From NCBI RefSeq assembly GCF_002163585.1, contig NZ_CP015579.1, positions 3,782,001 through 3,846,000 on the forward strand: a DNA stretch of 64,000 nucleotides, written 5' to 3'. The notes beneath the pieces were generated by a model that did not search any database, had not been told where the DNA came from, and saw nothing but the letters and a program-made list of their open reading frames with translations. Below are positions 29,811 through 59,642 of the stretch, piece after piece. The stretch is from Tatumella citrea. Its GTDB lineage: Bacteria; Pseudomonadota; Gammaproteobacteria; Enterobacterales; Enterobacteriaceae. Position 1 is the stretch's first letter; each line of letters opens with the position of its first letter. Position numbers and translations under genes: made by a program.

Positions 29811-29819
29811 TCAGAACGG
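29811..29819. repeat. Candidate left attachment core
   Basis: TCAGAACGG, identical and in the same orientation as the last nine bases of ssb at the other end of the island. The repeat is short, so the call depends on its position 30 bp after the core terminator. Confidence 0.55.
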
Positions 29820-30131
29820 TAGTTCACATAAAGTAAGAAAAAATAATACAACCAATTGAAAACATTCATTTTTATCATAACAAAAGGATAAAATGTCAAT
29901 TTATCCCCAATATTGTTCACTTTCTGGACAGAAACTGTGGTACTACTATCCGCTAAGTGTAAAGTTAGAATATTAACACTTTCAGCGATATCATCTGAGC
30001 AACTCAAGTGGATCCAACACCCGAAATCAATAAGGCGGCTCTTCAAAGGCTGGTTATTTCGATCAAACATTGATTCGCATTTTAGCAAGATCTTGGCGAA
30101 ATAAAATTCATTAATTCTATTGCTATCAACT
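29820..30131. other. Left end of island, no gene
   Basis: AT-rich sequence without a credible coding region. A leftward open frame across it runs through the core terminator and the putative attachment core and resembles no protein. Confidence 0.55.
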
Positions 30132-30280
30132 CTATATCAAACCTTGGTATTTACACCGTTTCGAGCTGTAATTGGCCAAAAACTTGTCAGACCAAGGATC
30201 TATTCCGTAGACAGGCACCCAGTCTCCCGGTAATCCCCCCATAAAACCGGTATGTTCATAAGTAGAATTTTCTCGTAATC
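30132..30280 (-). pseudogene. C-terminal remnant of an unrecognised gene
   Basis: About 48 codons ending in TAG, reading STYEHTGFMGGLPGD then WVPVYGIDPWSDKFLANY in one frame. The composition is protein-like (aromatic, W, G, D and P in ordered spacing) and unlike the low-complexity noise around it. Upstream the frame runs antisense into an IS3-type orfA remnant, so the 5' part was probably removed by that insertion. I do not recognise the family. Confidence 0.35.
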
Positions 30281-30299
30281 TGAACTGAGGGGAAATTCT

Positions 30300-30548
30300 T
30301 TGAAAAAATCTCGTTTTACTGACAGCCAGATTATCGCCATTCTTAAAACAAACCGAAGCAGGCACACCTTTCTCGGAGCTTTATCGGGAGCACGGCATCA
30401 GTAGTGCCAGCTTTTATCAATGGCATTTGTAGTTTGGCAGGATGGATGCTGCCCGCATCTCTTAGCCGAAAGAGCTGGAAGAGGAAAACTGTCGTTTCAA
30501 AAATGTATGCCGAAGAGCGGCTGAAATCATTCAAGAAGCCATGGCAAG
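30300..30548 (+). pseudogene. Decayed IS3-family orfA
   Basis: Pieces in shifting frames spell an IS3-family (IS407-like) OrfA: KKSRFTDSQIIAILK, then ELYREHGISSASFYQWH, then MDAARIS, KELEEEN, MYAEERLK and IIQEAM. At least three small deletions and two in-frame stops break it, and the start codon reads TTG. No orfB follows. It marks an old insertion at the left end of the island. Confidence 0.8.
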
Positions 30549-30559
30549 ATGTGAGGGTG

Positions 30560-30625
30560 CGTAATCGCACTTGATCTGGACCCCCTTTCGCATATTACTT
30601 GGCGACCGTTCGCAAATTACTTGAC
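30560..30625. repeat. IS21-like terminal repeat array (remnant end)
   Basis: Three imperfect copies of one motif, read on the minus strand: GTCAAGTAATTTGCGAA, CCAAGTAATATGCGAA and TCAAGTGCGATTACGCA, with the ACTTG cores at 30569, 30597 and 30619. Multiple copies of a CAAGT-type transposase-binding repeat near the tip are typical of IS21-family ends. No istA or istB genes are present. Confidence 0.5.
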
Positions 30626-30770
30626 CATTGCCAACAAGTTCTGACTGTAAACATTCGATGTGTGAAATGGGTTCATCTGAATGTCTGCTGCGTGCCAGGA
30701 GCTGACATTACAAACATCTGAACATGCGGATCTACGGGGGAGCAGGACACCTCTCTAAAAACACATAAAA

Positions 30771-30792
30771 AAACCGCCATAAATGGCGGTTT
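30771..30792 (-). terminator. Terminator-like hairpin upstream of HEPN gene
   Basis: AAACCGCCAT/ATGGCGGTTT with a short loop, followed on the minus strand by seven T residues. It would stop leftward transcription; no gene on that strand clearly needs it, so it may shield the next gene from antisense reading. Confidence 0.65.
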
Positions 30793-30945: not shown

Positions 30946-32775
30946 ATGAGAATCGATAAGCAACTCAATAAGCAAGGCTGTACGCCTAGGCAGGTCTTTT
31001 TCATTGAATGTTGGGGGAATCTTTCCCACAAAAATAGCATTGATACAGATAGGGTCAGCTTCAACAACCCGTTGAACGCCTCAAACGAGTTACTTTTTCT
31101 CTACCAGTTTGGTGACAAATACAAAGGGATCGATAAACGTGCCCGGGCAGCCGAAGAGTTGCTGGAACTGCTAAAAAAAGATGTGGTCGCCGCGCAACCG
31201 ATATTTGAAGACATCCCTCAAACTCTGATAAGTCTTCTTGAAACTAAAGAGCTTCTCCGAGACTCGGGCAGAAGCCCAGTTGAAAAAAAACAGAAGCTCA
31301 TTCAGAGCATGGTCAATCAGTTAGTTGATAGTTTTGAAACTTATTATATTGAAAAAGCCATTGAACTCATTGAGATTGAGCTAAATTTGACTTCGAAACC
31401 TAGTGATCTTGATTATGAGAAAATTGCTAATTTATCAAATGGGTTGATGAGTGTTGTTCTTACCCTTGGCATGCCTATTTCAGAATGCTATCTTTTATAT
31501 AAGCGCATTCTATTAGGTAAAAATGGAGAATTATTTTCTTCAAGATTTTCTTCATGGCGGTCAAAATTATGTAATCAACCAACAGAATATGATGTAAAAA
31601 TCACGATAGAGAGTAATAAATTACATGACATGTTCCAATCCACGCAGCAGTCAGTAACTTTCAATGGATGTATTTATCAACCGGTAATAACAGGAAAAAA
31701 TAAAAAGGCTGTAGAAATAAATATAAATACCATTGCTCGCTCGGTATTATCTGCGAGAGTGAATGCCGAAGCCATCCTTGAAGAATCGTTAGATGTTGTA
31801 GCTTACATAATTGGCCGAAATGATATTAATACACATAGTTCATTTACAGTAAAAGATTCATCAGGTCATATTACTAATATAGCCAAATTTGAAAATGAAA
31901 TAAACGCCAACACAGATCGATTAACACTCAGTGAATTTTCATTTTTCATGAATTCCATGGGGAAAATATACACACAATCTCCCTCTAAATCTTTAAAGAA
32001 AATCAGTTCCGCATTCCATTTTTTAAGGAATGGAATTAGTAAAAGCTCAAAGGAAAGTCGTTACACCTCATACTGGTCAGCGCTGGAATCTCTAACACTT
32101 GGTGTATCTTCAAATGACCTAACGCATGATGAACACGTCATTTATTCCGTTGTACCCTGCATCGGGGTCGACTATATTGTTAAGCAGATGGCCTTGATGC
32201 GCGACATCATTTTATCAGAATCGATGATTGTCACTGATTCTGCGGGGTCGGCCATTGATTTTAACCATGCAAGCCTGGCTGATTTGTACACTTATTTTAA
32301 AGATAGAAGTATCAGTTCACAAATTGAATCTTGGCTGGTTAATTATCCATATTCAGCATATATGTTCAGGAAATTATTATTACTATGCAATAATCATAGG
32401 GAGATGGGAAGTAAGATTATTAAACATGCAGAGAAGGTAACATTGCAAATTCATAGGTTATATATATTAAGAAATTCTATCGTTCATAACGCTGAATCTA
32501 GTCCTTATATTGAAATGCTGACTGCAAATCTAGAACATTATTTGCGAGGGACTATAAACGCTATGTTCTATATGGCATCAACCCTTCCGAGAGTAAGTTC
32601 ATCCGAAGAGGCATTTATTAGATATCATCATATGTTTGAAAAAATGATTGTCGATCTCGAGCCAACTCATGGCGCGAAACATAACAAAATAGATGGAATT
32701 AACAAACAAATAGAAAAAAGACAAATAGTAACCTCAGATGCAGTATTGGTTAAGTGGTTGAAGTTGCACTCATAA
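30946..32775 (+). CDS. Large orphan protein with C-terminal HEPN (Apea-like) domain
   Basis: A 609-aa soluble protein with no signal peptide or membrane segment. I recognise only the C-terminal third: YTSYWSALESLTLG near 375-388 and the motif RNSIVH (R509 to H514) in RLYILRNSIVHNAESSP, the Rx4H signature of HEPN domains, here of the Apea-like type found in many phage-defence proteins, where R and H form an RNase active site. The first 350 residues, with several acidic helical stretches (AAEELLELLKKD, EKAIELIEIELN), match nothing I can name. The gene is strikingly AT-rich compared with flanking core genes. It has no operon partner: IS21-like remnants lie on both sides. A single-gene abortive-infection RNase is a reasonable guess, unproven. 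Confidence 0.6.
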   Translation: MRIDKQLNKQGCTPRQVFFIECWGNLSHKNSIDTDRVSFNNPLNASNELLFLYQFGDKYKGIDKRARAAEELLELLKKDVVAAQPIFEDIPQTLISLLETKELLRDSGRSPVEKKQKLIQSMVNQLVDSFETYYIEKAIELIEIELNLTSKPSDLDYEKIANLSNGLMSVVLTLGMPISECYLLYKRILLGKNGELFSSRFSSWRSKLCNQPTEYDVKITIESNKLHDMFQSTQQSVTFNGCIYQPVITGKNKKAVEININTIARSVLSARVNAEAILEESLDVVAYIIGRNDINTHSSFTVKDSSGHITNIAKFENEINANTDRLTLSEFSFFMNSMGKIYTQSPSKSLKKISSAFHFLRNGISKSSKESRYTSYWSALESLTLGVSSNDLTHDEHVIYSVVPCIGVDYIVKQMALMRDIILSESMIVTDSAGSAIDFNHASLADLYTYFKDRSISSQIESWLVNYPYSAYMFRKLLLLCNNHREMGSKIIKHAEKVTLQIHRLYILRNSIVHNAESSPYIEMLTANLEHYLRGTINAMFYMASTLPRVSSSEEAFIRYHHMFEKMIVDLEPTHGAKHNKIDGINKQIEKRQIVTSDAVLVKWLKLHS

Positions 32776-32863
32776 AATGTTATTTGATGAATCCGAGCTA
32801 CTCGCAATGGTCAATCCAACCTATCTATTAGTTGTTCCTACTTAGAATACATTTTCAGCTTTA

Positions 32864-32998
32864 GAGCCTATCCCAATAGATAATAGGGTTCAGCTTGCAA
32901 CGGGTATTATGCCTGTTGGTTGAACCCATGATAACAGGGTTGGCGCATCAAAACTGGCAGCTTTAAAAACGGTTTTTATCGCCTATTGAGATAGGTTC
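32864..32998. mobile_element. 135-bp MITE with IS5-type inverted repeats
   Basis: The ends are GAGCCTATCCCAATAG on the left and the inverse of GAACCTATCTCAATAG on the right (14 of 16 matching), flanked directly on both sides by TTA. A 3-bp TNA target duplication and GAxCCTATC-type ends fit the IS5 family (IS427/IS1031-like groups). The inside is too short to code and holds a GGGTTCA/TGAACCC dyad. It is non-autonomous. Confidence 0.72.
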
Positions 32999-33119
32999 TT
33001 AATATCGCCTTATAAAGTTCAATGGATCGGTTAAACTTGAAACGCTAACTTCCGCTCCTCGCTCACAACTGCCTGTCAGCATAGTAGGTGACTTGCCTTC
33101 ATTTTTTGTTAGAGATATC

Positions 33120-33184
33120 CAAGTGAAATGCAAACAGGTAGTCAAGTAAAATGCAAATGGGCTGTCAAGTGAATGCAAATACTC
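33120..33184. repeat. Three tandem 23-bp repeats, IS21-like end
   Basis: CAAGTGAAATGCAAA, CAAGTAAAATGCAAA and CAAGTGAATGCAAA occur at 33120, 33143 and 33166, an exact 23-bp period. They resemble in inverted orientation the array near 30.6 kb. They may be the multiple transposase-binding repeats of an IS21-family end, or iterons. Confidence 0.6.
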
Positions 33185-33346
33185 AGAGGGAGAAGCTAAC
33201 TAAACCTGTAGGATGACAGAAGACACTCGGTCTGATGCTTTTCAACAGAGCGCTTTTGCTCTGAACCCCACACTTAGGGGAGGAATTCCTCAAGAAGATG
33301 GTGATATCTTAAGAAATATTGTACAACTATATGTAGTAAATAATTT

Positions 33347-33393
33347 TACCCCGTAATGTCGGGCGCTCGATGCTGGCCAGACATTACGGGGTA
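33347..33393. repeat. Perfect 14-bp inverted repeat with 19-nt loop
   Basis: TACCCCGTAATGTC (33347-33360) is exactly mirrored by GACATTACGGGGTA (33380-33393). There is no strong T-run, so it is not an obvious terminator. It could be an IS terminus, a recombination site or an RNA stem; it is unexplained. Confidence 0.6.
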
Positions 33394-33694
33394 GTGGTGG
33401 GGTGTCTGAGACAATCATCAGGACGAGTCTCGAAAAGACTGCAGACGGACAACGGAAGCTAATTTAGCTCAAAACTAATGGAGAAGATGAGCTAAAAGAA
33501 CGAGGAGCACTATGGACTTCTCTGGACTGGGAAAACCCTACGGATAATGTACTTTTCGAGTCTTTTAATAGCACAGCCTGAGGCTGAACTGCCATTTGTT
33601 CCTGCCTCTTGAATATGCACAGGAGAAAATCGAGTACTGCCGATAGTAAAATAATCATTACCAATGCACTATTAAATACATACTGGAGTTGTAT

Positions 33695-33868
33695 ATGAAC
33701 GCGTTTATACAAAAAAAATCTGACAAAAAAATCGATGTTCGCCATCCGCGTGGGAGTAAAATTATTGAGGAGTTACTTAATGGTATTGACCTTGATGAAA
33801 TTAAAGAGTCGAACGAAAAAATGAAGGATTATTTGAATCAAAAGCCGGTTGGCAATGAGCTTCTCTGA
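33695..33868 (+). CDS. Small hypothetical protein, 57 aa
   Basis: A short charged protein (MNAFIQKKSDKKIDVRHPRG at the start, then IIEELLNGIDLDEIKESNEK). It has a basic N-terminal third and an acidic, helix-prone remainder. The ribosome site is excellent: GGAG six bases before the ATG. Such a layout is common in small antitoxins and DNA-binding proteins, but I recognise no family and no partner toxin gene is adjacent. It is isolated in an otherwise non-coding, AT-rich part of the island. Confidence 0.5.
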   Translation: MNAFIQKKSDKKIDVRHPRGSKIIEELLNGIDLDEIKESNEKMKDYLNQKPVGNELL

Positions 33869-34459
33869 AGAATATTGTTAGAGTTAACACTTTGCTGATT
33901 TTTATGGTAGTAACCTACTGATATAACAGTCTTTGATACTCAACTGATTCGCTAAGATGGTGTCGATAACATGTGAAGGTGTGCGTCAGGGGGATAAAAG
34001 CATATTGAACTATAAATCATTAAAATCTGGGTGATGATAAATAATCAAATAAAATCAATGCAATATAATAAAATCCCATGTTATAAATTTTGATTTTTCA
34101 GTTTCCCTGTGACTCGTAACGTAACAATCCCCTCAAATATCGTTTAAAGTCCCCCCTAGCACCCACCAAATCCAGTTCTTTTAAGGATCCATGCTAGAGA
34201 TTAAGTGGTATCCAGAGCAAATATCAGAATGATTAATGATTAAGGAAGTATCTTCCGATACTCCTTCCATCTGTGTAACGACTGCCGCTATCAGTAAAAC
34301 GTGATCGTTGAGCCTCGCTGCCATTCGGGTCATCGAGATACTCCTAAATTCAGGCTAGTAGAGAATTTCACTTATGAACACACTGGTTTACGGGGAAATT
34401 ACCATTACCTTTATTTCAGAAAGTTATACTTACTGAATAAACATACACCATCGCTAGAA
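33869..34459. other. Intergenic, island, no certain gene
   Basis: Mostly AT-rich non-coding sequence. A leftward 50-codon frame (34333 to 34181, beginning MTRMAARLNDHVLLIAAVV) has a good AGGAG seven bases upstream but no recognisable homology; it may be a real small gene or chance. No terminator for the RND gene to the right is obvious. Confidence 0.45.
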
Positions 34460-37400
34460 TCAATGCCGTACTAAACACCGTTTGTCTGACCATGACTGTT
34501 CTTTCTGCATAACCAGGCTCATTGCAGCCGGAAGAACCGTCAGCGTCACCAGTGTTGCCACCAATAATCCACCAATAATTGCATACGCCATTGGCCCCCA
34601 GAATACCTGCTCTGAAATCGGCAGCATCCCGAGTATCGCCGCACAGGCAGTCAGTAGTATCGGCCGAGCACGGTGCCCAGCTGCGGAGATGATCGCCGCA
34701 TCATACATCATTCCCTCCCGTACATAGTTGTCAGCTTCACTGATAAGAATCACCGAGTTACGGATTATCATCCCCGCCAGCGCGATAATGCCCAGCAGTG
34801 CGACGAACCCTAGAGGGGTGCCAGTTGGCAACATCGCCAGCACGATACCAATCAGACCAAAGGGCGCCATCAGTAGAGCCAGCAGCATCCGGGAAAACAG
34901 CTGAAGCTGTATCATCAGCAACACCATCATCACCATCAGAGTCACCGGCAGCATGACGTACACAGAGTTGTTGCCTTTCTCTGATTCTGCCACCGTCCCG
35001 CCCTCCTCTACCTGATAACCAGGTGGCAGTGTGGCACGTAGCCGGTTAACCGATGGCAGCAGTTGTTTTGAGACAGTCTCCGCACGCATCCCAGGTGCCA
35101 CATCGGTCTGTACGGTAATATAAGGCAGCCGCTGACGCCTCCATATGACCGGGTCACCCACCCCCCATTCAGGTGTCGCAATCTGGCTCAGCGGGATTTT
35201 CTGCCCCAGGTCATTTGTCAGGAGCAGACCGGACAACGTCGTTAAATCCTGACGTTCCGCGTCATTCGCGCGCAGCACCACATCAATCAGACGATTGCCA
35301 TCACGCACCTTCGTCACCACCGACCCTGACCATACGGTGTTCAGCATCTGAGCAATAAGCTGCGAAGATACACCCGCTGCCCTGGCGGCCGTCTGATTAA
35401 CGTTGAGTGTGATGACCCGTTCCGGCTCTCCCGCGCTGAGGTTAACCTCACGTGTACAGGGACACATACCCAGCACTGACGCCAGCTTATGCGCAATCGC
35501 TTTCACCTGTCCGTAATCAGGTCCGGTGATGCGGTATTTCACCGGCCAGCCCACCGGAGGACCGAGTTCCAGCGGGGAAACACGGCTGATGATGTCTCTG
35601 AACTGACTGGAGAGCAAATCATTCAGCGTTTTTTTCAGCCTGTCACGTGACCGCAAGTCCTTCGCCACCACCACCAGTTGGGCGGTATTTTCATTATCTA
35701 GCAGGACATCCATCGGCAGGTAAAAGCGTATTGCACCTGACCCGATGTAACTTGAAAAATGATCAACATCCGGGTCACGGATTAACGCTTTTTCTAATCG
35801 TGTAACCTGACGCCCGGTTTCGCTCTGAGAAGCGTCAGCTTCCAGCGTCAGGCTGACCAGCAGTTCGGGCCGGTCAGAGGCAGGGAAAAATTCACCCTGC
35901 ATAAATGTCGTGCCATACGCGGCCAACCCCAGCAGAACCAGTGCAACCCCGACAGTCATTGCCCGGTGGTGTAGAATCATGGTCAGCAGACGATGATATC
36001 CCGCCCGAAGCCTACTCGGAGACCTCCTGTCCGGATGAGTTTTTAGTTTTACAGGTAAAATCCTCACACCGATAAGCGGCGAAAACAGGATGGCAACCCC
36101 CCATGAACAGAGCAGCGCAATCAGCATCACAGCAAACAACGTGTAGCAGTATTCCCCCGCGCTGGAGGCCGCAAATCCGACAGGAATAAACCCGGCAATC
36201 ATCACCAGCGTCCCGGTCAGCATCGGAAACGCAGTTGTTCTGAAGGCATACGTGGCCGCCTCGCGGCGTGAATCACCCGCTTCAAGCCTGGATATCATGG
36301 TTTCAACCGTTATCATGGCATCGTCAACCAGCAGCCCGAGCGCGATAATCAACGCACCGAGCGAGATACGTTGCAGACCGATACCGGCAAGCAGCATGCC
36401 GGTAAAGGTCAGCGCCAGAACCAGTGGTATCGCTGCGGCCACCACCATTCCGGCGCGCAGGCCCAACGACACAAAAGACACGGCAAGTACAATGGCGACC
36501 GCCTCAGCCAGCACGCGAACAAATCCGCTGATAGCGTTGGCGACCACGGCCGACTGGTCGGCGACCTTAACCATTTCAATACCGTGGGGCAGCTGCTGGC
36601 TGAGCAGCCCAATGCGGGCCTTCAGGGCCAGACCGAAGTCGATCATATTCCCGGTTGCAGCCATGGAAATAGCCAGACCGATGGCCGGTTTTCCGTTAAC
36701 GCGGAACTCCGGCGACGGAGGCTCTGCCGTTTCGCGCCGGACGGTGGCGATAGCGGTCAAAGGAATATAACGACCATCGATATGCAGCGTGACCGCCTGC
36801 AGGCTTTTTTCCGACGTCAGCGCGCCGCTGACGCGAAGCAAGACCTTTTCGCGGGCCGTGCGCAGCGTGCCGGCAGGCTCGACCGCATTCTGCGCCTTCA
36901 GGGCATCGCTGACCTGTTGCAGAGTGATCCCCATGCCCGCCAACTGGCGCGGGGAGAAAGCGATAACGAGTTGTTCGTCCTGCTCCCCGATCAAGCGAAT
37001 TTTCCCCACGTCCGGCAGCGACATCAGGTCGCGGCGAATATCCTCCACCCGGTCGCGCAGTTCCTGCAGAGTAAAACCCTCGGCGGTAAACCCATAGATA
37101 GTGCCAAAGGTATCCTCAAATTCGTCATCAACCGACGGTCCCTGTACGCCGGAGGGCAGTGATGAGGCAATATCCTGCATTTTCTTTCGCACCTGATACC
37201 AGATGCCGGGCACCTGCCTGGGCGGGGTATCATCTCTCAGGTTGACAAAGATCACCGACTGACCGGCATGTGTATCACTTTCCACATAATCCAGATACGG
37301 AATTTCCTGCAGCTTTTTCTCCAGCGTGTCCGTCACCAGGTTGACCGTATCCTGTACGGTAGCTCCCGGCCAAGAGGCTGAGACTACCGCCGTCTTAATC

Positions 37401-38682: not shown

Positions 38683-38775
38683 GGCAGTGTTCCTGAACAA
38701 GGTTCCGGTCATTCAACCGGAACAGTGTCAGGATTTACCCCTGCTTTCTGTCAGGAGTCTGTCAAGACGGCAGAT

Positions 38776-40646: not shown

Positions 40647-40677
40647 TCAGGCCACCTTGACCGTTTCTTCATAAATC

Positions 40678-40695
40678 ACTGACAGTTTACTGACA
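40678..40695. promoter_or_regulatory. Direct-repeat operator between regulator gene and mipA
   Basis: ACTGACA-GTTT-ACTGACA: two identical 7-mers with an 11-bp period, the arrangement bound head-to-tail by OmpR-family dimers. It lies in the 124-bp divergent control region. Confidence 0.6.
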
Positions 40696-40770
40696 CTGCC
40701 TTCGTATATTAACCAGGCATACGCGGGCCTTGGCAACCGCTTACTAACGATTCAGGTAAGGAGAAGCACA

Positions 40771-41559: not shown

Positions 41560-41597
41560 GTAAATAGTTGTGTCTTCAAAAAGATGGCTTTTGTTTC

Positions 41598-50239: not shown

Positions 50240-50317
50240 TATATCGGCCCGCAGTTCACTGGTCTGTGAAGTATGGCAGTCCAGTGACTGCTTCGACTGA
50301 CAGTATGGAGATAATTC

Positions 50318-51016: not shown

Positions 51017-52358
51017 AACCACATACTTTAGAATGTCATTCATTGCGCTTTTGGTCTCGGCGTTATGTATTGTTATATTATCTCTTTCAGTTTACTACCA
51101 GGCAAGGAACATCCTCATTGTGCAGAACGATCAAGCCATATTTAATCAGGTGAATACAATTTCTATGCTACCGATAGATAAGATGATTCAGGCATTGAAT
51201 AATAGGCTAACGAACGATTATAGACAGGTTTTTTATGGAGGGGTTTTTGATTCGACAGGAGAATATATTGCTGGAAATATTACAACTGAACCTCCAAGAA
51301 ATGAATATTCCATAAAGCCTTACCGAGCAAGAATAGCAGGAATCCCCAATGAAATCAGGATGGTAAGGAAAGAGCTTGCAAATGGTGATGTTTTATATTT
51401 CGGTGTGTATATAAAACTCATTTCAGAAATGAAACTTATTATTTTTACTGCTACATTAACATGCCTGGCATTTATGTCACTCGGTGCTGGAATAATTGGA
51501 GTCATTCGTAGTGTAAAAACAGTTAGAGACCTAATGGATATTCAAGAGATTACCAGGGTTATTAGTCAGGGTGATTTTCGACAACGGATTCATAATATGA
51601 CTGGTAATAATGAAATTGATACACTAGTAGAACATATAAACATTATGCTGGAAGATATTGAAAAGTTAACTGGAGAAATCTATGCCATTAATAAGAATAT
51701 TTCCCACAACCTTTTTTCGCCTCTAATTAGGCTGCGAGGTGTAATCAGTGAAATATCTCAGCTAGCAGCTATCAATACTGGTAAAAAAGAGCAGGAAGTC
51801 CTGAGCATCGCCGAAAGTGAAATAGAAATGATCCTAAAAAGATTTTCTGCGCTTCAGAGAATTTCTTCCATTGAGAGTCGTACAAAATATTCTGGCATGT
51901 CCTTTTTTCATCTTTCTGAGCTAAAGAATGATATAGAGGAGATCTTCGAACCTTATAGTGTCGAAACAGGGACCAAATTTGAGGTTCTCGATAGTGATGG
52001 TTTTATCTATGCTGATAAGGGATTATTATTTGAAGCAATATTCAACCTTGTAGAGAACTCTTTTAAATATTGCCCTTCCGGAAGCATTATCACATTAATC
52101 TTTTCTTCCTCGAAGAATAAAACTAATATTGTGGTACAGGATAATGGCAATGGAATAACAGATGAAAATTACCTTGACATTATTAACCGATATTCCCGTG
52201 CAGACGGAGGGTATGATGTATCAGGAACTGGTATCGGGTTGTCAATTGTAAGTTCTGTTGCCAGGTTGCATGGTTTCGAATTACAAATTGAAAATCTCAA
52301 CCCAGGATTAAAGGTTGCACTCATTGCTGAAAATAGTAATTATCGTCCTTCTGTGTAA
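51000..52358 (+). CDS. Sensor histidine kinase with HN-type H-box (cassette 2)
   Basis: A 452-aa kinase with membrane segments at about 13-33 and 145-168, a periplasmic loop of about 110 residues, HAMP, and the phospho-acceptor H236 in NISHNLFSPLIRLRG. The residue after the histidine is N instead of the usual E or D that assists catalysis, so phosphotransfer or phosphatase balance may be altered. The ATP site looks intact (NLVENSFKYCP, DNGNGI, GTGIGLSIV). It overlaps the regulator gene by 17 bp; an ATG two codons earlier is equally possible. Codon use is AT-rich. Confidence 0.87.
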   Translation: MKSLFKTTYFRMSFIALLVSALCIVILSLSVYYQARNILIVQNDQAIFNQVNTISMLPIDKMIQALNNRLTNDYRQVFYGGVFDSTGEYIAGNITTEPPRNEYSIKPYRARIAGIPNEIRMVRKELANGDVLYFGVYIKLISEMKLIIFTATLTCLAFMSLGAGIIGVIRSVKTVRDLMDIQEITRVISQGDFRQRIHNMTGNNEIDTLVEHINIMLEDIEKLTGEIYAINKNISHNLFSPLIRLRGVISEISQLAAINTGKKEQEVLSIAESEIEMILKRFSALQRISSIESRTKYSGMSFFHLSELKNDIEEIFEPYSVETGTKFEVLDSDGFIYADKGLLFEAIFNLVENSFKYCPSGSIITLIFSSSKNKTNIVVQDNGNGITDENYLDIINRYSRADGGYDVSGTGIGLSIVSSVARLHGFELQIENLNPGLKVALIAENSNYRPSV

Positions 52359-52375
52359 AAATGCGATTTTATCAA

Positions 52376-52729
52376 TTATAAATTTTTTTCAAGGATAATT
52401 CTTCGGTATTCGGCTGGGGGGTAACCAGTAATTCGCTTGAATACACGCGTGAATTCCTGTTGACTGCTATAACCATATTTGATAGCAACGTCTAGTATTT
52501 TATATCTATTCTCTACAATATCTAATTTTGCCATTTCCAATCTCCGATGACGAATATAGGTAGCAAGAGAAATATCCATGTATTCTTTGAAAATTCGCTG
52601 GAGATACCAACGAGAGTAACCGGCACGACTAGCTACACTTTTAATGGAAAGATCATCGCTAAGATTATGCTCTATCCATACAATGAGATCGTCTATAACA
52701 CTGGAATAAATATTGGTTGGCCGATGCAT
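52376..52729 (-). CDS. RamA/SoxS/MarA-type AraC activator
   Basis: A 117-aa single-domain AraC-family activator. Two helix-turn-helix units are visible: IKSVASRAGYSRWYLQRIFKEYM near 28-50 and ILDVAIKYGYSSQQEFTRVFKRITGYPP near 78-105. There is no effector domain, so like RamA and MarA its activity is set by its own expression. It lies tail-to-tail with the kinase of the second RND cassette, and members of this group typically raise efflux and lower porins. It is clearly distinct from the core soxS in this window. Confidence 0.88.
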   Translation of the reverse strand: MHRPTNIYSSVIDDLIVWIEHNLSDDLSIKSVASRAGYSRWYLQRIFKEYMDISLATYIRHRRLEMAKLDIVENRYKILDVAIKYGYSSQQEFTRVFKRITGYPPAEYRRIILEKNL

Positions 52730-52915
52730 AGTAATACCTAGTAAAAAATGATTATCTACAGATTAATACAACTTCCTTATTGACTGGGTTAATACTAATT
52801 AACTTGACAATCAGATTATTTATCCCGCAAGGATGTGTAAGTATCCCTGCCAAAAGAACCATTCACTTTTAGAGATCTTCGGACATACTGAATATGTTCC
52901 CTGAAGGAGATCGCT

Positions 52916-53182
52916 ATGCGTAAAGCCCGATTTACTGAACACCAGATTATCGCCGTTCTGAAGTCTGTTGAAGCCGGCCGAACGGTGAAGGATGTCTGCC
53001 GCGAGGCCGCAATTTCAGAAGCCAGCTATTACAACTGGAAAGCGAAATATGGCGGAATGGAAGCTTCTGATATCCGCAAAATCAAAGACCTGGAAGACGA
53101 AAACCGGCGTCTTAAACAGATGTTCGCTGATCTGAGTCTTGAGAACCGTGCACTGAAAGACGTTATCGAAAAAAAGCTTTAA
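52916..53182 (+). CDS. IS3-family transposase OrfA
   Basis: An 88-aa DNA-binding protein: helix-turn-helix from ARFTEHQIIAVLK to DVCREAAISEASYYNWK and a C-terminal leucine-zipper-like region (DLEDENRRLKQMFADLSLENRALKD). The slippery heptamer A-AAA-AAG (53170-53176) lies in the zero frame just before the stop, allowing a -1 shift into orfB to make the OrfAB transposase. Confidence 0.92.
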   Translation: MRKARFTEHQIIAVLKSVEAGRTVKDVCREAAISEASYYNWKAKYGGMEASDIRKIKDLEDENRRLKQMFADLSLENRALKDVIEKKL

Positions 53183-53187
53183 AACCA

Positions 53188-54027
53188 GTGATAAAGCGTG
53201 AGCTCGCCCATTATCTGATCTCGCAGTTTACAATGAGCACACGTCAGGCATGCAGGACATTATCACTGAGCAGGACGGTATTTTTCTACAAACCGGATAC
53301 ACGGCGTAATGACGTTGTCATTGAAGCCCTCACAGAACTCGCTGAGCGCTATCCGCGATACGGTTTTAAGAAGCTTTTTCAGATCATTCGCCGGCAGGGC
53401 CATGTCTGGAACCATAAGCGGGTTCACCGGATTTACTGCCTGCTGAAACTGAATTTCAGACGCAAAGGAAAACAGCGTTTGCCGGTACGTAATCCGGCGC
53501 GGCTGGCGACACCAGAGGCAATAAACCAGAGCTGGTCGGTTTATTTTATGCACGATGCTCTGGTCAGTGGCAGACGTTTCCGGACATTCAATGTGGTGGA
53601 TGACTTTAACCGTGAAGCACTGGCCATAGAGATTGACCTGAATATTCCTGCTCAGCGGGTCATCAGAGTATTGGATCGAATTGTTGCTCACCGTGGCTAT
53701 CCGCTGAAACTGAGGATGGATAGCGGACCGGAATTTATCTCACTGATACTGTCCCAGTGGGCTGAAGATCACGGTGTGCAACTGGAGTTCATTCAGCCCG
53801 GAAAACCCACTCAGAATGCTTTTATTGAACGATTTAACCGGACATACAGGACTGAAATACTGGATTTTTATCTGTTCAGAACACTGAATGAAGTACGGGA
53901 AATTACAGAGCGCTGGCTGACAGAATATAACCGCGAGCGACCTCATGAATCCCTGAATAACCTGACGCCGGAAGAATACCGGTTGATGGCTGAAAAACCG
54001 GAAACCTCAAAAAGTGTCTGGAACTAA
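53188..54027 (+). CDS. IS3-family transposase OrfB with altered catalytic site
   Basis: A 279-aa integrase-core protein with HTH_21-like N-terminus and retroviral-type DDE domain. The second and third acidic residues are D178 (RMDSGPEF) and E214 (FIERFNRTYR), 35 residues apart as expected. At the first position, 58 residues before D178, the residue is Y119 (WSVYFMHDAL) where family members have D (WSxDFMHD). GAT to TAT is a single base change. This copy is therefore predicted inactive, although otherwise full length. It starts at GTG or, as fusion, through the frameshift. Confidence 0.9.
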   Translation: MIKRELAHYLISQFTMSTRQACRTLSLSRTVFFYKPDTRRNDVVIEALTELAERYPRYGFKKLFQIIRRQGHVWNHKRVHRIYCLLKLNFRRKGKQRLPVRNPARLATPEAINQSWSVYFMHDALVSGRRFRTFNVVDDFNREALAIEIDLNIPAQRVIRVLDRIVAHRGYPLKLRMDSGPEFISLILSQWAEDHGVQLEFIQPGKPTQNAFIERFNRTYRTEILDFYLFRTLNEVREITERWLTEYNRERPHESLNNLTPEEYRLMAEKPETSKSVWN

Positions 54028-54180
54028 AACAGGTATGCTTACACTGTAGCTGAGGGCTAGTGCCAAATCTACAATAAACATCTGAAATTTAATGCTTAAT
54101 CATGGTAAAGGATGGTCTTAAAATGAGTTCAAAATCCATATCTTGAAACACACGATTTCTTAGTCAATTTTTATCATTGC

Positions 54181-54657
54181 TTATCCTTTCCCAGAAGGTG
54201 GGATTTCCTTATCAAACGGTCGCAAAATTTGAGCTGTATCTCTATGAGAAGGTATCTCCACGCCTTCCGGTAGAATTTTATCAACGCTGTCCATTTGCAT
54301 GCCTTTCTGCCGCACATGGAAAGCGATCTGCTGCCAGCGGCGTAGCCATTGTTCTTCCTTTCGCTTGTAGGCCTCTAGCTCGGCTTTGAGGCGATCCACC
54401 TCTATCTGAAGTTCTTTCGCCTCTTTAGTTGCCTGATCTTTAGTTTTCACCAAGCCACCCGATAGTGACCGTTTGGCGTTGTCGTAAGCGGCTTTAATTT
54501 CGGACTTGGCCTGAAGCGACTGACGACTAAAGCCAAAACGCTCTTCCAACGCAGCCCAAGTGAGTTTTGCCCCAAGCTCGCCGAGTGCCCAGCGGTCCAA
54601 ATCGGTAACTATTGCATTGATGTCACTGTCGGACATTCTCCTGAAGCGATTAACCAT
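54181..54657 (-). CDS. Small coiled-coil protein of recombinase operon (GinD/TnpC-like)
   Basis: A 158-aa protein with an N-terminal part resembling a helix-turn-helix (LTWAALEERFGFSRQSLQAK, about 33-52) and a central coiled coil (TKEAKELQIEVDRLKAELEAYKRKEEQWL, about 78-106). Small proteins of this kind close the gin operon of GInt islands and, as TnpC, the Tn554 transposition operon, where they influence recombination. It overlaps the preceding recombinase gene by 8 bp. It is the gene furthest from the ssb junction. Confidence 0.72.
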   Translation of the reverse strand: MVNRFRRMSDSDINAIVTDLDRWALGELGAKLTWAALEERFGFSRQSLQAKSEIKAAYDNAKRSLSGGLVKTKDQATKEAKELQIEVDRLKAELEAYKRKEEQWLRRWQQIAFHVRQKGMQMDSVDKILPEGVEIPSHRDTAQILRPFDKEIPPSGKG

Positions 54658-56659
54658 GCTCTACCTCGTTTAAATATTTTTCGGGATCAAAGTGTTCCAC
54701 CCCGTTATCAGCCAGTTGCACAGCCAGAGTTTTGAGTTTTTTATCGTTATGAGCTAACCAATCTGCGCTCTTTTTGGGCTTGTTGCTAATTAATTGTTTC
54801 TCAGCATTTTTTCTGGCTAGCGCGGCCATTGCGTATTGGCGCTTTTGATCATCCAATCGCCCCTTATCATCTTTTACCCACACATAGTCTTTGCAATCTG
54901 CCGAACATTGCAAATGCCGCTCGCAGGGTGTTTGTGAGAAATTGTGGATACAGATACCCGTACCAACATCATGTACTGCCTGAATTCGCGCTTTCAGAAT
55001 AGCGTCCTGTACTTCTAACGGAATTACTTTGATTTGCTCAACTAACAGACCACCAACCAAGCCTTTTTTGATATCTTCACGGAGCATCAGTGCACGTTTT
55101 TCACGGGATGTATGCTGATAGGCTTTGGTGTCTCTTGGGTTGGTTCGACCAAACCATTCGGTTTGCAGTAGATCACTTAATCCACCTTCATCAAGCAGGG
55201 TATTGAGCGTGTGACGGAAATGATGACTGGTAAAATCTACCTCGATACGGCTGGATGCATATTCAGCGGCAAGCTCAGGGAAATAGCGGAGAAAGGTAGT
55301 AAACATGGACTGAGTACAGCTTGTGGCCATCCAATGAGCATAGCTCCCACTAGAAAGCCCAAGTGGTCGAATGAATAAAAGATCTTGTAGATAGTATTCT
55401 TTTCCAAATTGGTCCGTATGGAAAGCCGATAGATATTCTTCCGAGCAATTACGGCAACAGTATTCAACCAATCCACTTTTATAAGTGAAAAATATCGGGT
55501 TTGCAGGCTTAATTCCCCGCTTAGTTAACGCACTATGATCTGGCCACGTGAGGTTTCGCTTCCTGAGCCAGCCAGTAGCCCCCAAAACAGTATGACTGAT
55601 CCCCAATTCTTTTAAATCAGCCGCATATAGCTTTTCACCTTCCTGTATGGTATCCAAAAACCTAATGTCAGGCCCACCAACTTTGTGCATTTCTTCCGCT
55701 GTTGAACGCGCTTGATATGTGATTTCCTCTAACTCGACGAGCACATCTCTGACGATGAGAGTCACTTCGGACGGTAAATAAAGCCTGCGCTTTGGAGTGA
55801 AAGCATCTCCACGACTTGCTTTTCGCGGGAAGTATTCGATATAGCGGTTACCTTCATCATCAAAAGACAATTGCTGATTGGGTAGAAGTGAAATCTCACT
55901 GAATCGCCTTCCTGTACAAACAAGTAACGTCAACATCAGAATATAGAAACGATACTTATGATCTTTGGGAACCTTTGAGTAAAGTTCGCCAATGACTCGA
56001 AACACCGCGGGATCGACTAGCTTGTCCGACTTCGTCTCCAGAACCACAGGATCATCTAACCTTTTATGGCTTATACCTCCGGTACTAGCAGGACGCTTCA
56101 TTTTGGCGTATTTGTACTGTAATAAAACTCTGCATAAGCCATTGGCATCACAGTGTGCCGCGAACTCTGCAACATGCTTGTGTAGGTTATAGGCGGTAGT
56201 ATCACTGTAGTGTTTCGAAATTAGCACGCACGCATTATCCAGCGACTCTGGCGTCAGTCTGGCCAGCTCTTGACCGATCTGTTTCGCAGCAAATGAAACA
56301 TATCCAATAGCGGTAATGAAATTACGCTGATTGGGTGTTGATTGATGCTTTCTGTGGAACCTGAGAACGAATAGCGCTTTGGCAGCCAGCTCCCAGCAAC
56401 CGTCTAGTGACTCAGCGCCTAGCTTCGGGGATAGCGAAAAACCAAAAGACGCTGATTTCGTGTTTTTACCAGTCAACTTGACCAGGCGACCTGCTTCGAC
56501 TTGCCACTCGGGGTCATCCCAAACAACCGACTCAAACCCTACTAGCTTCATTAGCTTTGCTTTGCTGACTAAAGATTTGAGGTTTTCATTCCTGTCACGC
56601 TCAAGACGATCGACGAAAGGGACGACCTTAGTCTTGCGATTAGAGCGACCATCAGACAT
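54650..56659 (-). CDS. Tyrosine recombinase, large (GinC-like)
   Basis: A 669-aa tyrosine recombinase, third in the operon. Catalytic pieces are visible: the first arginine in CTGRRFSEISLLP (about 248), HHFRHTLN (about 478), W in EWFGRTNPRDTK and the nucleophile in KAYQH (about 513). After the catalytic domain comes a cysteine-rich stretch (ICIHNFSQTPCERHLQCSADC, about 567-590) resembling a metal-binding knuckle, then a lysine-rich tail. The ATG chosen follows a G-run (GGGGGGCACA) and overlaps the previous gene by 8 bp. Of the three recombinases it alone has the canonical HxxR. Confidence 0.85.
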   Translation of the reverse strand: MSDGRSNRKTKVVPFVDRLERDRNENLKSLVSKAKLMKLVGFESVVWDDPEWQVEAGRLVKLTGKNTKSASFGFSLSPKLGAESLDGCWELAAKALFVLRFHRKHQSTPNQRNFITAIGYVSFAAKQIGQELARLTPESLDNACVLISKHYSDTTAYNLHKHVAEFAAHCDANGLCRVLLQYKYAKMKRPASTGGISHKRLDDPVVLETKSDKLVDPAVFRVIGELYSKVPKDHKYRFYILMLTLLVCTGRRFSEISLLPNQQLSFDDEGNRYIEYFPRKASRGDAFTPKRRLYLPSEVTLIVRDVLVELEEITYQARSTAEEMHKVGGPDIRFLDTIQEGEKLYAADLKELGISHTVLGATGWLRKRNLTWPDHSALTKRGIKPANPIFFTYKSGLVEYCCRNCSEEYLSAFHTDQFGKEYYLQDLLFIRPLGLSSGSYAHWMATSCTQSMFTTFLRYFPELAAEYASSRIEVDFTSHHFRHTLNTLLDEGGLSDLLQTEWFGRTNPRDTKAYQHTSREKRALMLREDIKKGLVGGLLVEQIKVIPLEVQDAILKARIQAVHDVGTGICIHNFSQTPCERHLQCSADCKDYVWVKDDKGRLDDQKRQYAMAALARKNAEKQLISNKPKKSADWLAHNDKKLKTLAVQLADNGVEHFDPEKYLNEVEHG

Positions 56660-58235
56660 TGTGCCCCCCTTCTTCACAGAGTTTAGCTACTTGTGCGACC
56701 GCTGCGATCACCTCATCAAGCTGTATGCCCAGTCGCGCATTCTCGTACTTTTTTAAACGCTCTTCACGACCATTCAGCAAGCATTCCAGTACATGCTCGT
56801 GGTTAGCGTGCTGATAAGGCTGAAATTTGGGACACAAATAACATGAGTAAGGTGGATCAAGGTGGCAAACACTGGATTCGCCACACACGCCAATATCAGC
56901 CTGATCAGCAGGGTTTTGCTCATCGAAAAACATTAGATGCTTGTCATCTCGCTCACCATTGATAGCGTCTTCATCACTATTGATTAATCTACCTCTGAAA
57001 AAATTAAGGTACTTTGAGAATCCTTTCGCTATTGCCTTATCAAGGTGTTCAACTATTCTGGCTGCCATCTCAAAATAGACATTCACGTGCTGGGTATCAG
57101 TATGATCCAGTATTCTGGCCAGCTCACGCTTACTGATTCCTTCTGCAGCCAAGCCTGTTGCTAAGGTGTAGCGCAGCCGCCTTGGAGTAACGCGCATTAA
57201 TTCACCAGTGAGCGGTGAGATAATATTGTGGCGTTTTACGAACGCACTGAGTAAACGTGATATATCGCTGCTTGTCAGATTAAATGCGTTATCAAGATCT
57301 TTGGATAAAATGGCCGCTTTATTTCCATTCATATTAATTAGCAATGGTCGCTCTTCCGGATTAACAAAGGCCCTATCTGCAAAGCTCAACGGCACCAACT
57401 TACTGATTTCTATCAACTGCTCGATCATGACGCCAAAGTGTGGATCGAGATATTCAGCCAAAAGATCGTCTCTTGGATTCACAAATCGCTTTTTAATTCT
57501 CGGCATCCGAATGATGTAGCACGGGTCCTCACCTCCGGGAGCCAGCCGTTCAAAATCAGACTCACGCAGAAATGTTAGGTTAGCCGGGTTACGACCAATT
57601 GCTATGGAAAGAGCAACCACAACCCTCTGATGCAAATGTTCTAATGATCGCCCCTCATCCGACTTAAGTGCATTGACTAAGAGAGGTAGTTCAAGAGACT
57701 TGTGCAGAGGACCACTTTCGGGATCTTCCATCCGAACAGCTTCACCTTTCGGGTTCCCTGGTAACTCTAAGGCCTCGAGTTCTTGTGCATAAATTTCCGA
57801 AAAGCCATATTCTGGATTATTGTCCGCGTTCCAGATGTACCATTGTATGGGCCTGTACATTGCCCATAACCTTTTTTGTGAACGAGCACGATTGATAGCA
57901 ATTTCAAACAGGTCTATTAAGTGCGACTCTGTATCAATTTGAGGTGCTGGGTTATCCCAATGTCTCAGCACCTCTCTCCAGACATCCTGATACGCTGCAT
58001 AGCCCGCGTGGGTAGATATTCGCTTAAGTCGGTCGGCAACATGACCTTTGAACGATTCTCTGATTTCGGAGTTAATGATCTTAGTGAAATTCAGGGTTGA
58101 ATTATCCCGCGTTGAATACGGCAACCTCCAAATATCACCGGATATATCAACTTCCTTTCCTTCACGGGTAATTAATATCTCTATCTCAGACCAAAACTGC
58201 CCGACGGCCTGTGTTTTCGATAATCTTGTGTTCAC
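56652..58235 (-). CDS. Tyrosine recombinase (GinB-like)
   Basis: A 527-aa tyrosine recombinase, second in the operon, starting at GTG after GAGAGG. Active-site elements: R in AIGRNPANL (about 215), box II written RRLRYT (R where H is usual, about 352), H in ILDHTD (about 378) and Y in NVYFEMA (about 385). A C-terminal cysteine cluster (CGESSVCHLDPPYSCYLC) parallels that of the next gene. It starts 5 bp after the first recombinase gene ends, so the operon is tightly packed. In GInts and Tn554 all such recombinases act together. Confidence 0.85.
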   Translation of the reverse strand: MNTRLSKTQAVGQFWSEIEILITREGKEVDISGDIWRLPYSTRDNSTLNFTKIINSEIRESFKGHVADRLKRISTHAGYAAYQDVWREVLRHWDNPAPQIDTESHLIDLFEIAINRARSQKRLWAMYRPIQWYIWNADNNPEYGFSEIYAQELEALELPGNPKGEAVRMEDPESGPLHKSLELPLLVNALKSDEGRSLEHLHQRVVVALSIAIGRNPANLTFLRESDFERLAPGGEDPCYIIRMPRIKKRFVNPRDDLLAEYLDPHFGVMIEQLIEISKLVPLSFADRAFVNPEERPLLINMNGNKAAILSKDLDNAFNLTSSDISRLLSAFVKRHNIISPLTGELMRVTPRRLRYTLATGLAAEGISKRELARILDHTDTQHVNVYFEMAARIVEHLDKAIAKGFSKYLNFFRGRLINSDEDAINGERDDKHLMFFDEQNPADQADIGVCGESSVCHLDPPYSCYLCPKFQPYQHANHEHVLECLLNGREERLKKYENARLGIQLDEVIAAVAQVAKLCEEGGHNV

Positions 58236-58240
58236 TCCGG

Positions 58241-59413
58241 CTACCTCTCTGACATTATTTCAGCCTGGTAACGCTTCAACGACTTGATTGCCTGCTCTTC
58301 TACTTCTTGGGCTATGTAAGTATCTTGCGATTCCAAACTACTATCGCCACGCAGCAAGGCCAGCGCTTCTCTTCTGCGCTGTTCATCCATTCCTGAAGCA
58401 CGCAACACCCGCTCAAGCCGAGATGAAAATGTATGCCTAAGAGACTTGGCCGTTAAGTTGTCAGGAAGATGGTCAGCGTATTGCGATCGCAACAATTGAA
58501 AAAACTGTGTAATTGAGGATTGTGATAAAGGCGCCCCCTCATCACTCAAGATTAAATAATCTGATTCGTCTTGGCTTTTACTTTCAAGCACTTCACGCCA
58601 AGTAACAATGTACTCATTCAAAGCAAATGCAAATTGCTTATTTTCAATCGGAATGACTCGACCATTACGCTTTATTTGAGGCCTGGGTCGCCTTACATCT
58701 AGCGGATCCGCTGGTCTACGTTCAACCTTTATCGCCGAAATCGCACCAACCTGAATATCTTCTACCCTGAGGCTAAGCAGCTCACCAGGCCTTAAACCAC
58801 AAAATAGCATCAGCCCAACAGATACATAATTTCTAAACTTTACAGCAGAATCTCGTCCAAAACCCTGCTCAGTTTCGGGGTGCAATACCTCAAGTAAGAA
58901 ATCAACTTCAGCCTCATTTAGGCCCTTTCGAAGACTCTTTCTCATTGGTGTGGCAGACATAAAGCTACCATCCAACGTATTGAGCAAAAATGACTTCCTC
59001 TCCCTTAAACGCTCATAGTCCAAGGAAGATAGGGGCAACTGACTAGTCAGTACGTCCATGCACCAACTGATAAATTGCCGGATAGTTGTTAGCCGTTGAT
59101 TAAAGGTATTAGGCGCTACGGCACTTATACGTCCATTGGACTGATCGATTCTTAAAGCTTCGACCATACCACCTTTTAATTCAGCTTCGTTGAATGAGTT
59201 TTGAGCCAGTAATTTCGCAGATAGATCACAACTTGATTTATCCAGCCAACGATAGAGCACTGACAGCTCTCTCAAATTCCGAACCAATGTGTTGGTACTG
59301 AGGGATCGTCTGGCTAGGATAAACTCATTGGGCAAAACTACTGGCATACCAGAAGCATCCAGCATTATTGGTATCTGCTCACCCGTCTTATGTGTGACTA
59401 GCTCTATTTTCAT
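58241..59413 (-). CDS. Tyrosine recombinase (GinA-like)
   Basis: A 390-aa tyrosine recombinase, first gene of the operon. It has an N-terminal SAM-like core-binding domain (about 35-150) and a catalytic domain with R in CGLRPGELLSL (about 208), box II KSLRHTF (K where H is usual, about 324), and Y in QDTYIAQEVE (about 363). The start ATG follows GAGGGTGG; a longer frame upstream would cross the 18-bp palindrome and is not used. It is transcribed inward from the ssb junction. Confidence 0.85.
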   Translation of the reverse strand: MKIELVTHKTGEQIPIMLDASGMPVVLPNEFILARRSLSTNTLVRNLRELSVLYRWLDKSSCDLSAKLLAQNSFNEAELKGGMVEALRIDQSNGRISAVAPNTFNQRLTTIRQFISWCMDVLTSQLPLSSLDYERLRERKSFLLNTLDGSFMSATPMRKSLRKGLNEAEVDFLLEVLHPETEQGFGRDSAVKFRNYVSVGLMLFCGLRPGELLSLRVEDIQVGAISAIKVERRPADPLDVRRPRPQIKRNGRVIPIENKQFAFALNEYIVTWREVLESKSQDESDYLILSDEGAPLSQSSITQFFQLLRSQYADHLPDNLTAKSLRHTFSSRLERVLRASGMDEQRRREALALLRGDSSLESQDTYIAQEVEEQAIKSLKRYQAEIMSER

Positions 59414-59461
59414 TGCACCACCCTCATTGACAAAACAAGAATAGCCAAAGACTTCTAAGTT

Positions 59462-59479
59462 TACAATTTTTAAATTGTA
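59462..59479. promoter_or_regulatory. Palindrome upstream of ginA-like gene
   Basis: TACAATTT-TT-AAATTGTA, a perfect dyad about 50 bp before the first recombinase gene. It could be an operator for autoregulation or part of the recombination site, being near the island tip. Confidence 0.5.
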
Positions 59480-59512
59480 CGATTTTTTAAGGTTACAGGG
59501 GTGGACTATAAA

Positions 59513-59550
59513 CAAAAAAACCCTTCTAATGTTTACACATTAAAAGGGTT
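59513..59550 (-). terminator. Island-borne terminator after ssb
   Basis: AACCCTT-x-TAATG paired with CATTA-x-AAGGGTT around a 6-nt loop, followed on the minus strand by seven T residues. It lies inside the island, 84 bp after the ssb stop, and would now terminate ssb in place of the displaced core terminator. Confidence 0.88.
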
Positions 59551-59633
59551 ATGTTTTCCATTTATAGCCAGTAAAACCAACTAGTTAAATAAACCAGTTT
59601 GAAATTTACTTAACAATCTTAAATATATGTCAT

Positions 59634-59642
59634 TCAGAACGG
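59634..59642. repeat. Candidate right attachment core (ssb 3' end)
   Basis: TCAGAACGG, the complement of the last nine bases of ssb including its TGA. It is identical to the copy at the left boundary, so recombination leaves the SSB C-terminus unchanged. Confidence 0.55.

Follow-up and report, generated by a model that had tools for sequence, protein, structure and literature searches.

Introduction

GInts, also described as the Tn6571 family, were reported by Bardaji et al. (2017, PMC5385486). In the portions of that paper covered here, six of eleven GInts examined lie at the end of ssb with an unaltered gene product, a circular intermediate and a need for all four gin genes were shown for a GInt other than the one described below, and staggered cuts of 6 nt were proposed. 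The authors were unable to show transfer between bacteria, and, according to a later study, a complete GInt had not yet been shown to transpose (PMC10214605). GInts occur at defence hotspot 39 of Escherichia coli (PMC10121019), which is located between yjcB and ssb (PMC11728103). Strand-biased circularizing elements (SEs) share imperfect inverted arms around a 6-bp spacer. They differ in their core genes, intA, tfp, intB and srap, they are smaller, and ssb is unmentioned in the text of PMC10214605 that was covered.

Here we analysed 64,000 nucleotides of Tatumella citrea (assembly GCF_002163585.1, contig NZ_CP015579.1, positions 3,782,001 to 3,846,000), a stretch called the window and numbered from its first letter. 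It contains an island behind ssb, the gene of the single-stranded DNA-binding protein (SSB). Its refined limits are the block 29820-59636 (29,817 bp) plus one copy of a 6-bp core, and it is very probably a GInt inserted across the Pro-Phe codons of ssb that supplies the gene with a stop codon and an intrinsic terminator. Like the GInts in the portions of PMC5385486 covered, it has ginABCD at one end, a large cargo, short imperfect direct repeats and an insertion at the ssb end; compared with the GInts of hotspot 39, its cargo consists of efflux and metabolic genes. The window element is a new GInt, whereas the family and the ssb target are already published, as those portions record.

Results and discussion

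A gin operon adjoins ssb

The target gene and the gin genes are located as follows.

59634..60170, minus strand: ssb, single-stranded DNA-binding protein, the target gene, DDIPF tip intact (NCBIfam NF006533, 328 bits, cut-off 260)
58241..59413, minus strand: ginA, tyrosine recombinase, 390 aa, ATG start (Pfam PF00589, 4e-13)
56652..58235, minus strand: ginB, tyrosine recombinase, 527 aa (Pfam PF00589, 1e-6)
54650..56677, minus strand: ginC, large tyrosine-recombinase-like protein, 675 aa (PF00589, 4e-5, below the curated cut-off)
54181..54657, minus strand: ginD, fourth gene of the operon, 158 aa (weak DUF6262 match below cut-off)

The assignment to GInts, a family not named in the initial annotation, follows from this ginABCD-type operon at one end of the island, three recombinase-type genes and a small fourth, all open, adjoining ssb. 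The TTG start that the open reading frame finder gave for ginA falls inside the terminator described below, and the ATG was taken. Homologs of ginD adjoin the close ginC relatives, and all four homologs are found in the same order in close relatives. GInts are described as having RHRHY catalytic residues in GinA and GinB and as lacking the first arginine in GinC (PMC5385486). As judged by eye, the Arg, Arg and Tyr of this set seem present in all three proteins of the window, and GinA and GinB apparently lack the middle His. Unlike the published description, the window's GinC seems to have kept its first arginine (in GRRFSE; R258 is invariant in alignment A1). Other features agree with the family. 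The end repeat extends imperfectly to CAnTCAGAACGG with 11/12 matching (direct imperfect repeats of 10-17 nt in GInts), the short 3' end is AT-rich (GC 0.366 over 29820-30240, island 0.462), cargo follows the ginD end for about 24 kb to the right end (up to about 70 kb in GInts), and the product of ssb is unaltered by the insertion. The island's mean GC is also below that of its flanks (0.508 and 0.519).

The exchange probably lies in the Pro-Phe codons of ssb

We call the junction at ssb attL and the far junction attR. Their features are listed below.

59637..59642, minus strand: attL core CCGTTC, the Pro-Phe codons of the SSB tip and 6-bp overlap (CCNTTY on both sides in 17 paired ends)
59634..59636, minus strand: ssb stop TGA, probably element-borne to judge from relatives, where the attL stop tracks the element left arm and not the host
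59621..59636, minus strand: element left arm, beginning TGAATGACATATA, an imperfect inverted repeat of the right arm (8/13)
59610..59615, minus strand: TGTTAA at +18 from the stop, in the TGTWAA direct-repeat series, a candidate recombinase arm site
59532..59537, minus strand: TGTAAA at +96, within the terminator hairpin loop
59511..59550, minus strand: intrinsic terminator carried by the element, downstream of ssb (hairpin 59519-59550 of -17.6 kcal/mol with a T-run after it)
29820..29832, minus strand: element right arm TTTATGTGAACTA, conserved in the window's clade
29814..29819, minus strand: attR core CCGTTC
29811..29813, minus strand: presumed displaced native ssb stop TGA, first bases of the host right flank, by analogy with relatives whose displaced stop equals the empty-site stop

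The order at the junctions is thus host GATATC-CCGTTC, element TGA-ATGACATATA ... TTTATGTGAACTA, and then CCGTTC with the displaced native TGATTGGCC. With the same high probability as the GInt reading as a whole, the crossover would occupy six bases within ssb, the Pro-Phe codons CCNTTY of the SSB tip (59637-59642 and 29814-29819). The initial annotation had described a site-specific island at the 3' end of an essential gene, with the DDIPF tip kept, inserted exactly at the ssb stop codon. The site-specific island, the ssb end and the intact tip are supported; the exact point is not, as the exchange appears to involve the six bases before the stop. That annotation had also reported nine bases, TCAGAACGG, at both island ends and had considered them too short to stand alone. 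Both copies are present (29811-29819 and 59634-59642, the second being the ssb end), and the caution was justified. The 9-mer has 7 copies in the window, counting both strands, against 0.4 expected; two of the other five lie in insertion sequence (IS) copies and three in other genes. The nine-base repeat therefore proves nothing alone, and it was rejected as stand-alone evidence because it is not significant. What raises the end repeat above chance is the family-specific arms at both ends, which are shared with many relatives.

Paired ends were collected by seeking the right arm in the loci of relatives and in 12 whole genomes or records, using only the best arm match (0-2 mismatches) per genome. 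This gave 17 elements with both ends, the window included; for L072 the right-end search gave nothing convincing. The core is CCNTTY on both sides in 17/17 paired elements, and the attL stop differs from the attR stop in 11 of them. In the four elements that share the arm CCCTGATAA (L050, L051, L054 and L058) the attL stop is always TAG, irrespective of the host, and the attR stop never is. Around the core the arms form imperfect inverted repeats, with 7-10 of 13 positions matching in the 17 elements. A CCNTTY core with inverted arms fits the 6-nt staggered cuts proposed for GInts in the portions of PMC5385486 covered. By analogy with these relatives, the ssb stop in the window is most likely the element's own.

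Occupied and empty sites show a stop swap in relatives

The initial annotation had held that an empty site could be reconstructed. This was confirmed by two genomes of the window's genus, G005 and G002, and decisively by two Providencia genomes. The empty site in G427 (Providencia) reads CCATTC-TAA-TTTCTACATTAG. In G155 (Providencia rettgeri, the genome of L050) the site is occupied, with attL CCATTC-TAG-CCCTGATAAAT and attR CCATTT-TAA-TTTCTACATTAG. After the core, the first 238 bases of the G427 empty site and the G155 right flank are identical, and 1475/1500 agree. As read from this alignment, the native TAA is replaced by TAG, and attL kept the host core while the attR core is slightly different. 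The chromosomal ssb genes of 24 genomes of the Providencia genus, with arms judged by eye, point the same way. A GInt arm follows the stop in 7 genomes (TAG in 4, TGA in 1, TAA in 2) and is missing from 17 (TAA in 16, TGA in 1), so that non-TAA stops are found in 5/7 with and 1/17 without an arm (Fisher p 0.003). Plasmid pairs show swaps from TGA to TAG (L212, L206) and from TAA to TAG (L213, L203).

In the window's genus, G005 is apparently empty (CCGTTC-TGATCATCGTCTGATC). G002 carries a 0.6-kb piece that runs from the element left end across an ASCH-domain gene to the right arm, beyond which lies CCGTTC-TGATTATCGTCTGATC. This piece (L018:934-1530) has no gin genes and a single ASCH-domain gene between the element ends, and is a miniature GInt or a remnant. 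G003 was dropped as an empty site, as its ssb end resembles, at 0.78 identity, the left end of a type-2 GInt. In G001, the closest congener, the right flank is likewise similar to the left end of another GInt, again at 0.78 identity; the shuffled maxima are 0.64 for G003 and 0.66 for G001.

The element brings a predicted terminator

The initial annotation had placed a terminator of the island's own 84 bp after the ssb stop. A hairpin with a T-run is indeed present and begins 83 nt past the stop. We examined 160 nt after the ssb stop in 56 members, the window and L064, L066, L079, L094 and L107 included. By folding, a hairpin of -10 kcal/mol or lower with a T-run was found in 51/56 members and in 98/2800 dinucleotide shuffles. 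At -8 kcal/mol the forward strand gave 52/56 and the reverse strand 30/56. The control strand thus has hits of its own, and part of the hairpins may work in both directions. Folding replaced a strict stem search that had found 32/56 (137/2800 shuffles) and missed bulged stems.

Covariation was assessed in 17 of the 23 window-clade members, omitting L064, L066 and four members with identical or nearly identical hairpins (L051, L054, L056 and L061). Of the stem cells, 90.8% are paired, and 12/14 pairs change on both sides. The observed values were reached by 0/500 shuffles on four of five measures and by 2/500 on the fifth, where the shuffles ignore relatedness and the structure was drawn on the same sequences. 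The hairpin is predicted to terminate the ssb mRNA.

Direct repeats of TGTWAA at about +18 and +96 number 110 in 51 left ends against 21 expected, with 15 on the other strand, and TGTAAA is often within the hairpin loop. These sites may be recombinase arm sites. The terminator is kept without a working gin operon at ssb in G002, G400 and G152. In G400 the ginA match covers only residues 11-74 and IS genes lie inside, and both arms are present. In G002 and G152 the +18 and +96 sites are changed and the stem is retained, as judged by eye, which is expected if only the terminator is still useful.

Distribution of the family

A GinC profile scan of one genome per GTDB species, with the window's own genome left out, confirmed 157 stretches, and the best 80 of these 157 were analysed as relatives. 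Twelve of the 80 loci were unjudged because of contig ends or the lack of a gin anchor (L047, L049, L068, L073, L080, L083, L090, L104, L105, L108, L109 and L117). In 54 of the 68 assessable loci an ssb with an open tip immediately precedes the gin genes on the same strand, as is common among GInts; 50 of these have a gap below 450 bp, and L059, L079, L094 and L107 were judged by eye. GinC is 87-88% identical to that of the window in Ewingella, Providencia, Chelonobacter and Advenella, whose SSB is 79, 78, 59 and 54% identical, respectively. The element therefore crosses orders, unlike its target gene. Of 392 genomes from the window's family, 5 gave the left-end pattern. Nine gave the right-arm pattern, four of them with two mismatches and probably by chance, so the window's clade is rare in its family. 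A wider GinC search found 11/149 genomes of the family. Thorsellia anophelis has four GInt loci (L047, L048, L049 and L074) with the same gin identities to the window's; one lies behind ssb, one behind a repeat-rich gene whose product ends in DEMPF, and one abuts an apparent GInt left end.

Plasmid and probable prophage ssb genes are also occupied

The gin region of the window is 88% identical to that of a Serratia plasmid, where it lies directly behind the plasmid ssb. All six plasmid loci of the window's clade that were opened have ssb directly before ginA. These plasmids are IncFIA/IncFII, IncC (twice), IncFIA/IncFIC, IncY and IncFIA, and three were typed as conjugative, one as mobilizable and two as non-mobilizable. 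A second, distant GInt type is present in 37 plasmid records, of which 26 are typed as conjugative, 1 as mobilizable and 10 as non-mobilizable. With a query that included the ssb end, 37 records match well past ssb; they were taken as the same set, the first list having omitted seven. An SSB gene is listed under the match in 34 of these, one more shows ssb, one has unannotated ssb DNA and one is cut at the record start. Among five opened plasmids of the second type, three different plasmid ssb genes are followed by one and the same element end, TAG-AGTTAACTTG. One of the three tips is DDAPF, which suggests that Pro-Phe, and not the whole tip, matters. The element end on L206, an IncF plasmid of E. 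coli, is like those on the chromosomes of Chelonobacter and Advenella.

The second type is found in 378/5426 complete E. coli genomes, at 379 chromosomal places and 28 on plasmids. Two chromosomal cases were opened. In one the element follows the chromosomal ssb, and in the other it follows an ssb beside a Rad52-type gene, probably in a prophage. The window GinC had no match in the phage collection searched, which speaks against free phages as the main carriers. On an IncF plasmid (L206, L212), ssb natively stands close before a DUF905 gene, and the GInt inserts a terminator-like hairpin between ssb and whatever came after it. Such a hairpin between a plasmid ssb and the following genes may alter downstream expression.

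The insertions at plasmid and probable prophage ssb suggest, from sequence comparison, how GInts could travel without known transfer genes. Plasmid transport, put forward as a hypothesis from the occurrence on plasmids, would fit the spread across orders; against it, plasmid copies are a minority among the copies counted. The following joint proposal seems to us evenly balanced between being right and wrong. Aiming at the SSB tip would be a strategy for travel between replicons, the element's own stop and terminator would make each insertion harmless to the essential gene, and the ends would persist as fossils of ssb after decay of the gin genes. In this view the Pro-Phe codons of the tip recur in the ssb of chromosomes, conjugative plasmids, phage-plasmids and prophages, so that an element lacking transfer genes could hop from one replicon to another at ssb, and whichever of these moves would carry it. 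Selection would then keep the element end as the permanent 3' end of ssb, and part of today's ssb 3' regions would be GInt fossils.

Mechanism and alternative readings

A circular GInt would pair its joined arms with the ssb tip. By analogy with another GInt in which others have shown it, GinABCD would then exchange strands, here across the 6-bp CCNTTY overlap. The host coding sequence would be kept up to Phe, and the element would add a stop codon and, 83 nt on, an intrinsic terminator. The essential ssb would gain a complete new 3' end and lose nothing, and its old stop and 3' region would end up beyond the island, at 29813 and lower positions. The island is presumably still mobile. Its anatomy and ends, as well as the stop replacement seen in relatives between occupied and empty sites, are read from the DNA itself.

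It has long been known that integrating elements can restore gene ends, and the replacement of stop and terminator is a new instance of this old principle. GInts carry resistance, defence and virulence cargo, and the anatomy explains how a large island can sit harmlessly on an essential gene. Similar ends follow ssb both on an E. coli plasmid and on chromosomes from other orders, which opens GInt travel to a simple test. The succession of CCNTTY core, element stop and terminator gives exact ends for annotating GInts of the ssb type, including decayed ones without gin. In the main text of PMC5385486 the word terminator is absent and stop codon is used once, of ginD. A CCNTTY core, an element-borne ssb stop or terminator and plasmid ssb were not found in those portions. 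No statement on stop or terminator replacement or on plasmid ssb targeting was found in the covered parts of PMC5385486 and PMC10214605 or in literature listings, a scope that did not extend to supplements and most subscription papers.

Several observations weigh against the interpretation given here. Fourteen of the 68 assessable relatives are not directly behind ssb (L048, L063, L064, L066, L067, L087, L089, L100, L101, L113, L116, L121, L122 and L123). Among these, the ssb of L064 and that of L066 stand 1.5 and 3 kb upstream, each followed by a hairpin of the usual type, and L048 lies behind another gene, the one with a product ending DEMPF. Two of the 7 Providencia arm sites retain TAA and one of the 17 armless sites has TGA; moving two doubtful TAA sites, L184 and L192, into the group with arms changes the comparison to 5/9 versus 1/15 (p 0.015). 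At 3 mismatches the arm pattern matches no more often than a backward control, which is why only best matches were used. The attR of L046 and L056 (2/17) lie on other contigs than their attL. The six-base cores differ between attL and attR in 6/17 pairs, which means that an identical overlap is not required. The window has the stop TGA and the core CCGTTC at both junctions. The swap is therefore silent there and deduced from relatives, and a same-species empty site is absent from the genomes compared.

The alternative that survives best is a patchwork, in which one GInt supplied both ends, IS moves and further GInts arriving in succession at the same tip enlarged the cargo, and the island is no longer one mobile unit. 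The mixed GC per kb across the island (0.36-0.62) and the inverted IS3-type copies that flank 45.4-52.8 kb favour such a history. G001 shares the right end with the window, as well as a cargo block at 97% identity, but its ginA at ssb is degraded and belongs to another lineage, and L049 of Thorsellia abuts an apparent left end of another GInt. On the other side, the four gin genes of the window are open and both arms belong to one clade. We regard a patchwork as possible and somewhat less than probable.

A GInt could also lie at ssb with the stop and 3' end still those of the host, the resemblance of stop and arm being coincidental. The stops are equal in the window and in 5 further pairs of the 17. 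This is very improbable given the 11 unequal pairs, the constant TAG at attL of the CCCTGATAA-arm elements and the swap seen directly in the Providencia and plasmid pairs. Least probable of all is that the island is an SE, a RIT or a Tn554-type element: tandem recombinases, a 6-bp overlap and imperfect inverted arms are in common (PMC10214605, parts covered), but the gene order and sizes, on which the assignment to GInts over SEs was made, fit ginABCD, RITs have three recombinase genes and 34-bp inverted ends where the window has a fourth gene and arms of about 13 nt, and Tn554 is described in the same parts as lacking a counterpart of Tfp, which is GinC-like. SEs also resemble the Providencia pair in their cores, as the attL core is host-like and the attR core was apparently carried in.

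The right flank and the ancestral neighbourhood

Two features lie beyond attR.

28824..29717, plus strand: aldolase-like gene of the DapA family, the right neighbour (no close copy in five congeners)
29759..29782, strand unspecified: symmetrical terminator behind the aldolase-like gene and, before the insertion, possibly behind ssb

The symmetrical terminator, as initially annotated, is present. The proposal that removal of the island would restore an ancestral neighbourhood of ssb and the aldolase gene was not supported by the congeners compared. A close copy of the gene was found in none of the five congeners, the best partial matches being 65-69% identical, so the gene is unsupported as the ancestral neighbour of ssb. 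At its position the closest congener, G001, has a glucose-dehydrogenase paralog and G004 has glucose dehydrogenase; G002 and G003 carry other genes, and the contig of G005 ends about 150 bp past ssb. The neighbourhood is unconfirmed, although nothing speaks against it in the window's species. The right flank of G001 begins almost like that of the window (CCATTC-TGATTGACCT) and then diverges. The region 11608-29717 of the window contains many sugar-oxidation-type genes (PQQ glucose dehydrogenase, a GMC-like oxidoreductase with cytochrome c), and the paralog of G001 at the position of the aldolase gene is a second glucose dehydrogenase.

Cargo genes

30946..54043, strand unspecified: cargo, comprising a 609-aa protein, two RND efflux systems each with a two-component system, MipA, FolE2, a DksA-like protein, an AraC-type regulator and IS3-type copies

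Ten island proteins were scanned with PADLOC, and only the two-component pair matched, weakly. The 609-aa protein near the right end (30946-32775) had no significant match in Pfam, NCBIfam or PADLOC. Seventy-one relatives of it are listed, many from Enterobacterales, and one is named as an Apea-like HEPN domain-containing protein. It is possibly a defence gene. The inverted IS3-type copies (44251-45421 and 52835-54043) are 87-90% alike, and the left copy is apparently broken. Between them lie 7.4 kb that encode an RND pump together with a two-component system, the block that is 97% identical in G001. The second RND system, with its two-component system and MipA (34460-41559), reaches a GC of 0.62, above the rest of the island. 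A FolE2-type GTP cyclohydrolase lies beside a DksA-like protein with an N-terminal extension (42449-44050), and the pairing of FolE2 with a DksA-like protein occurs in zinc-limitation regulons.

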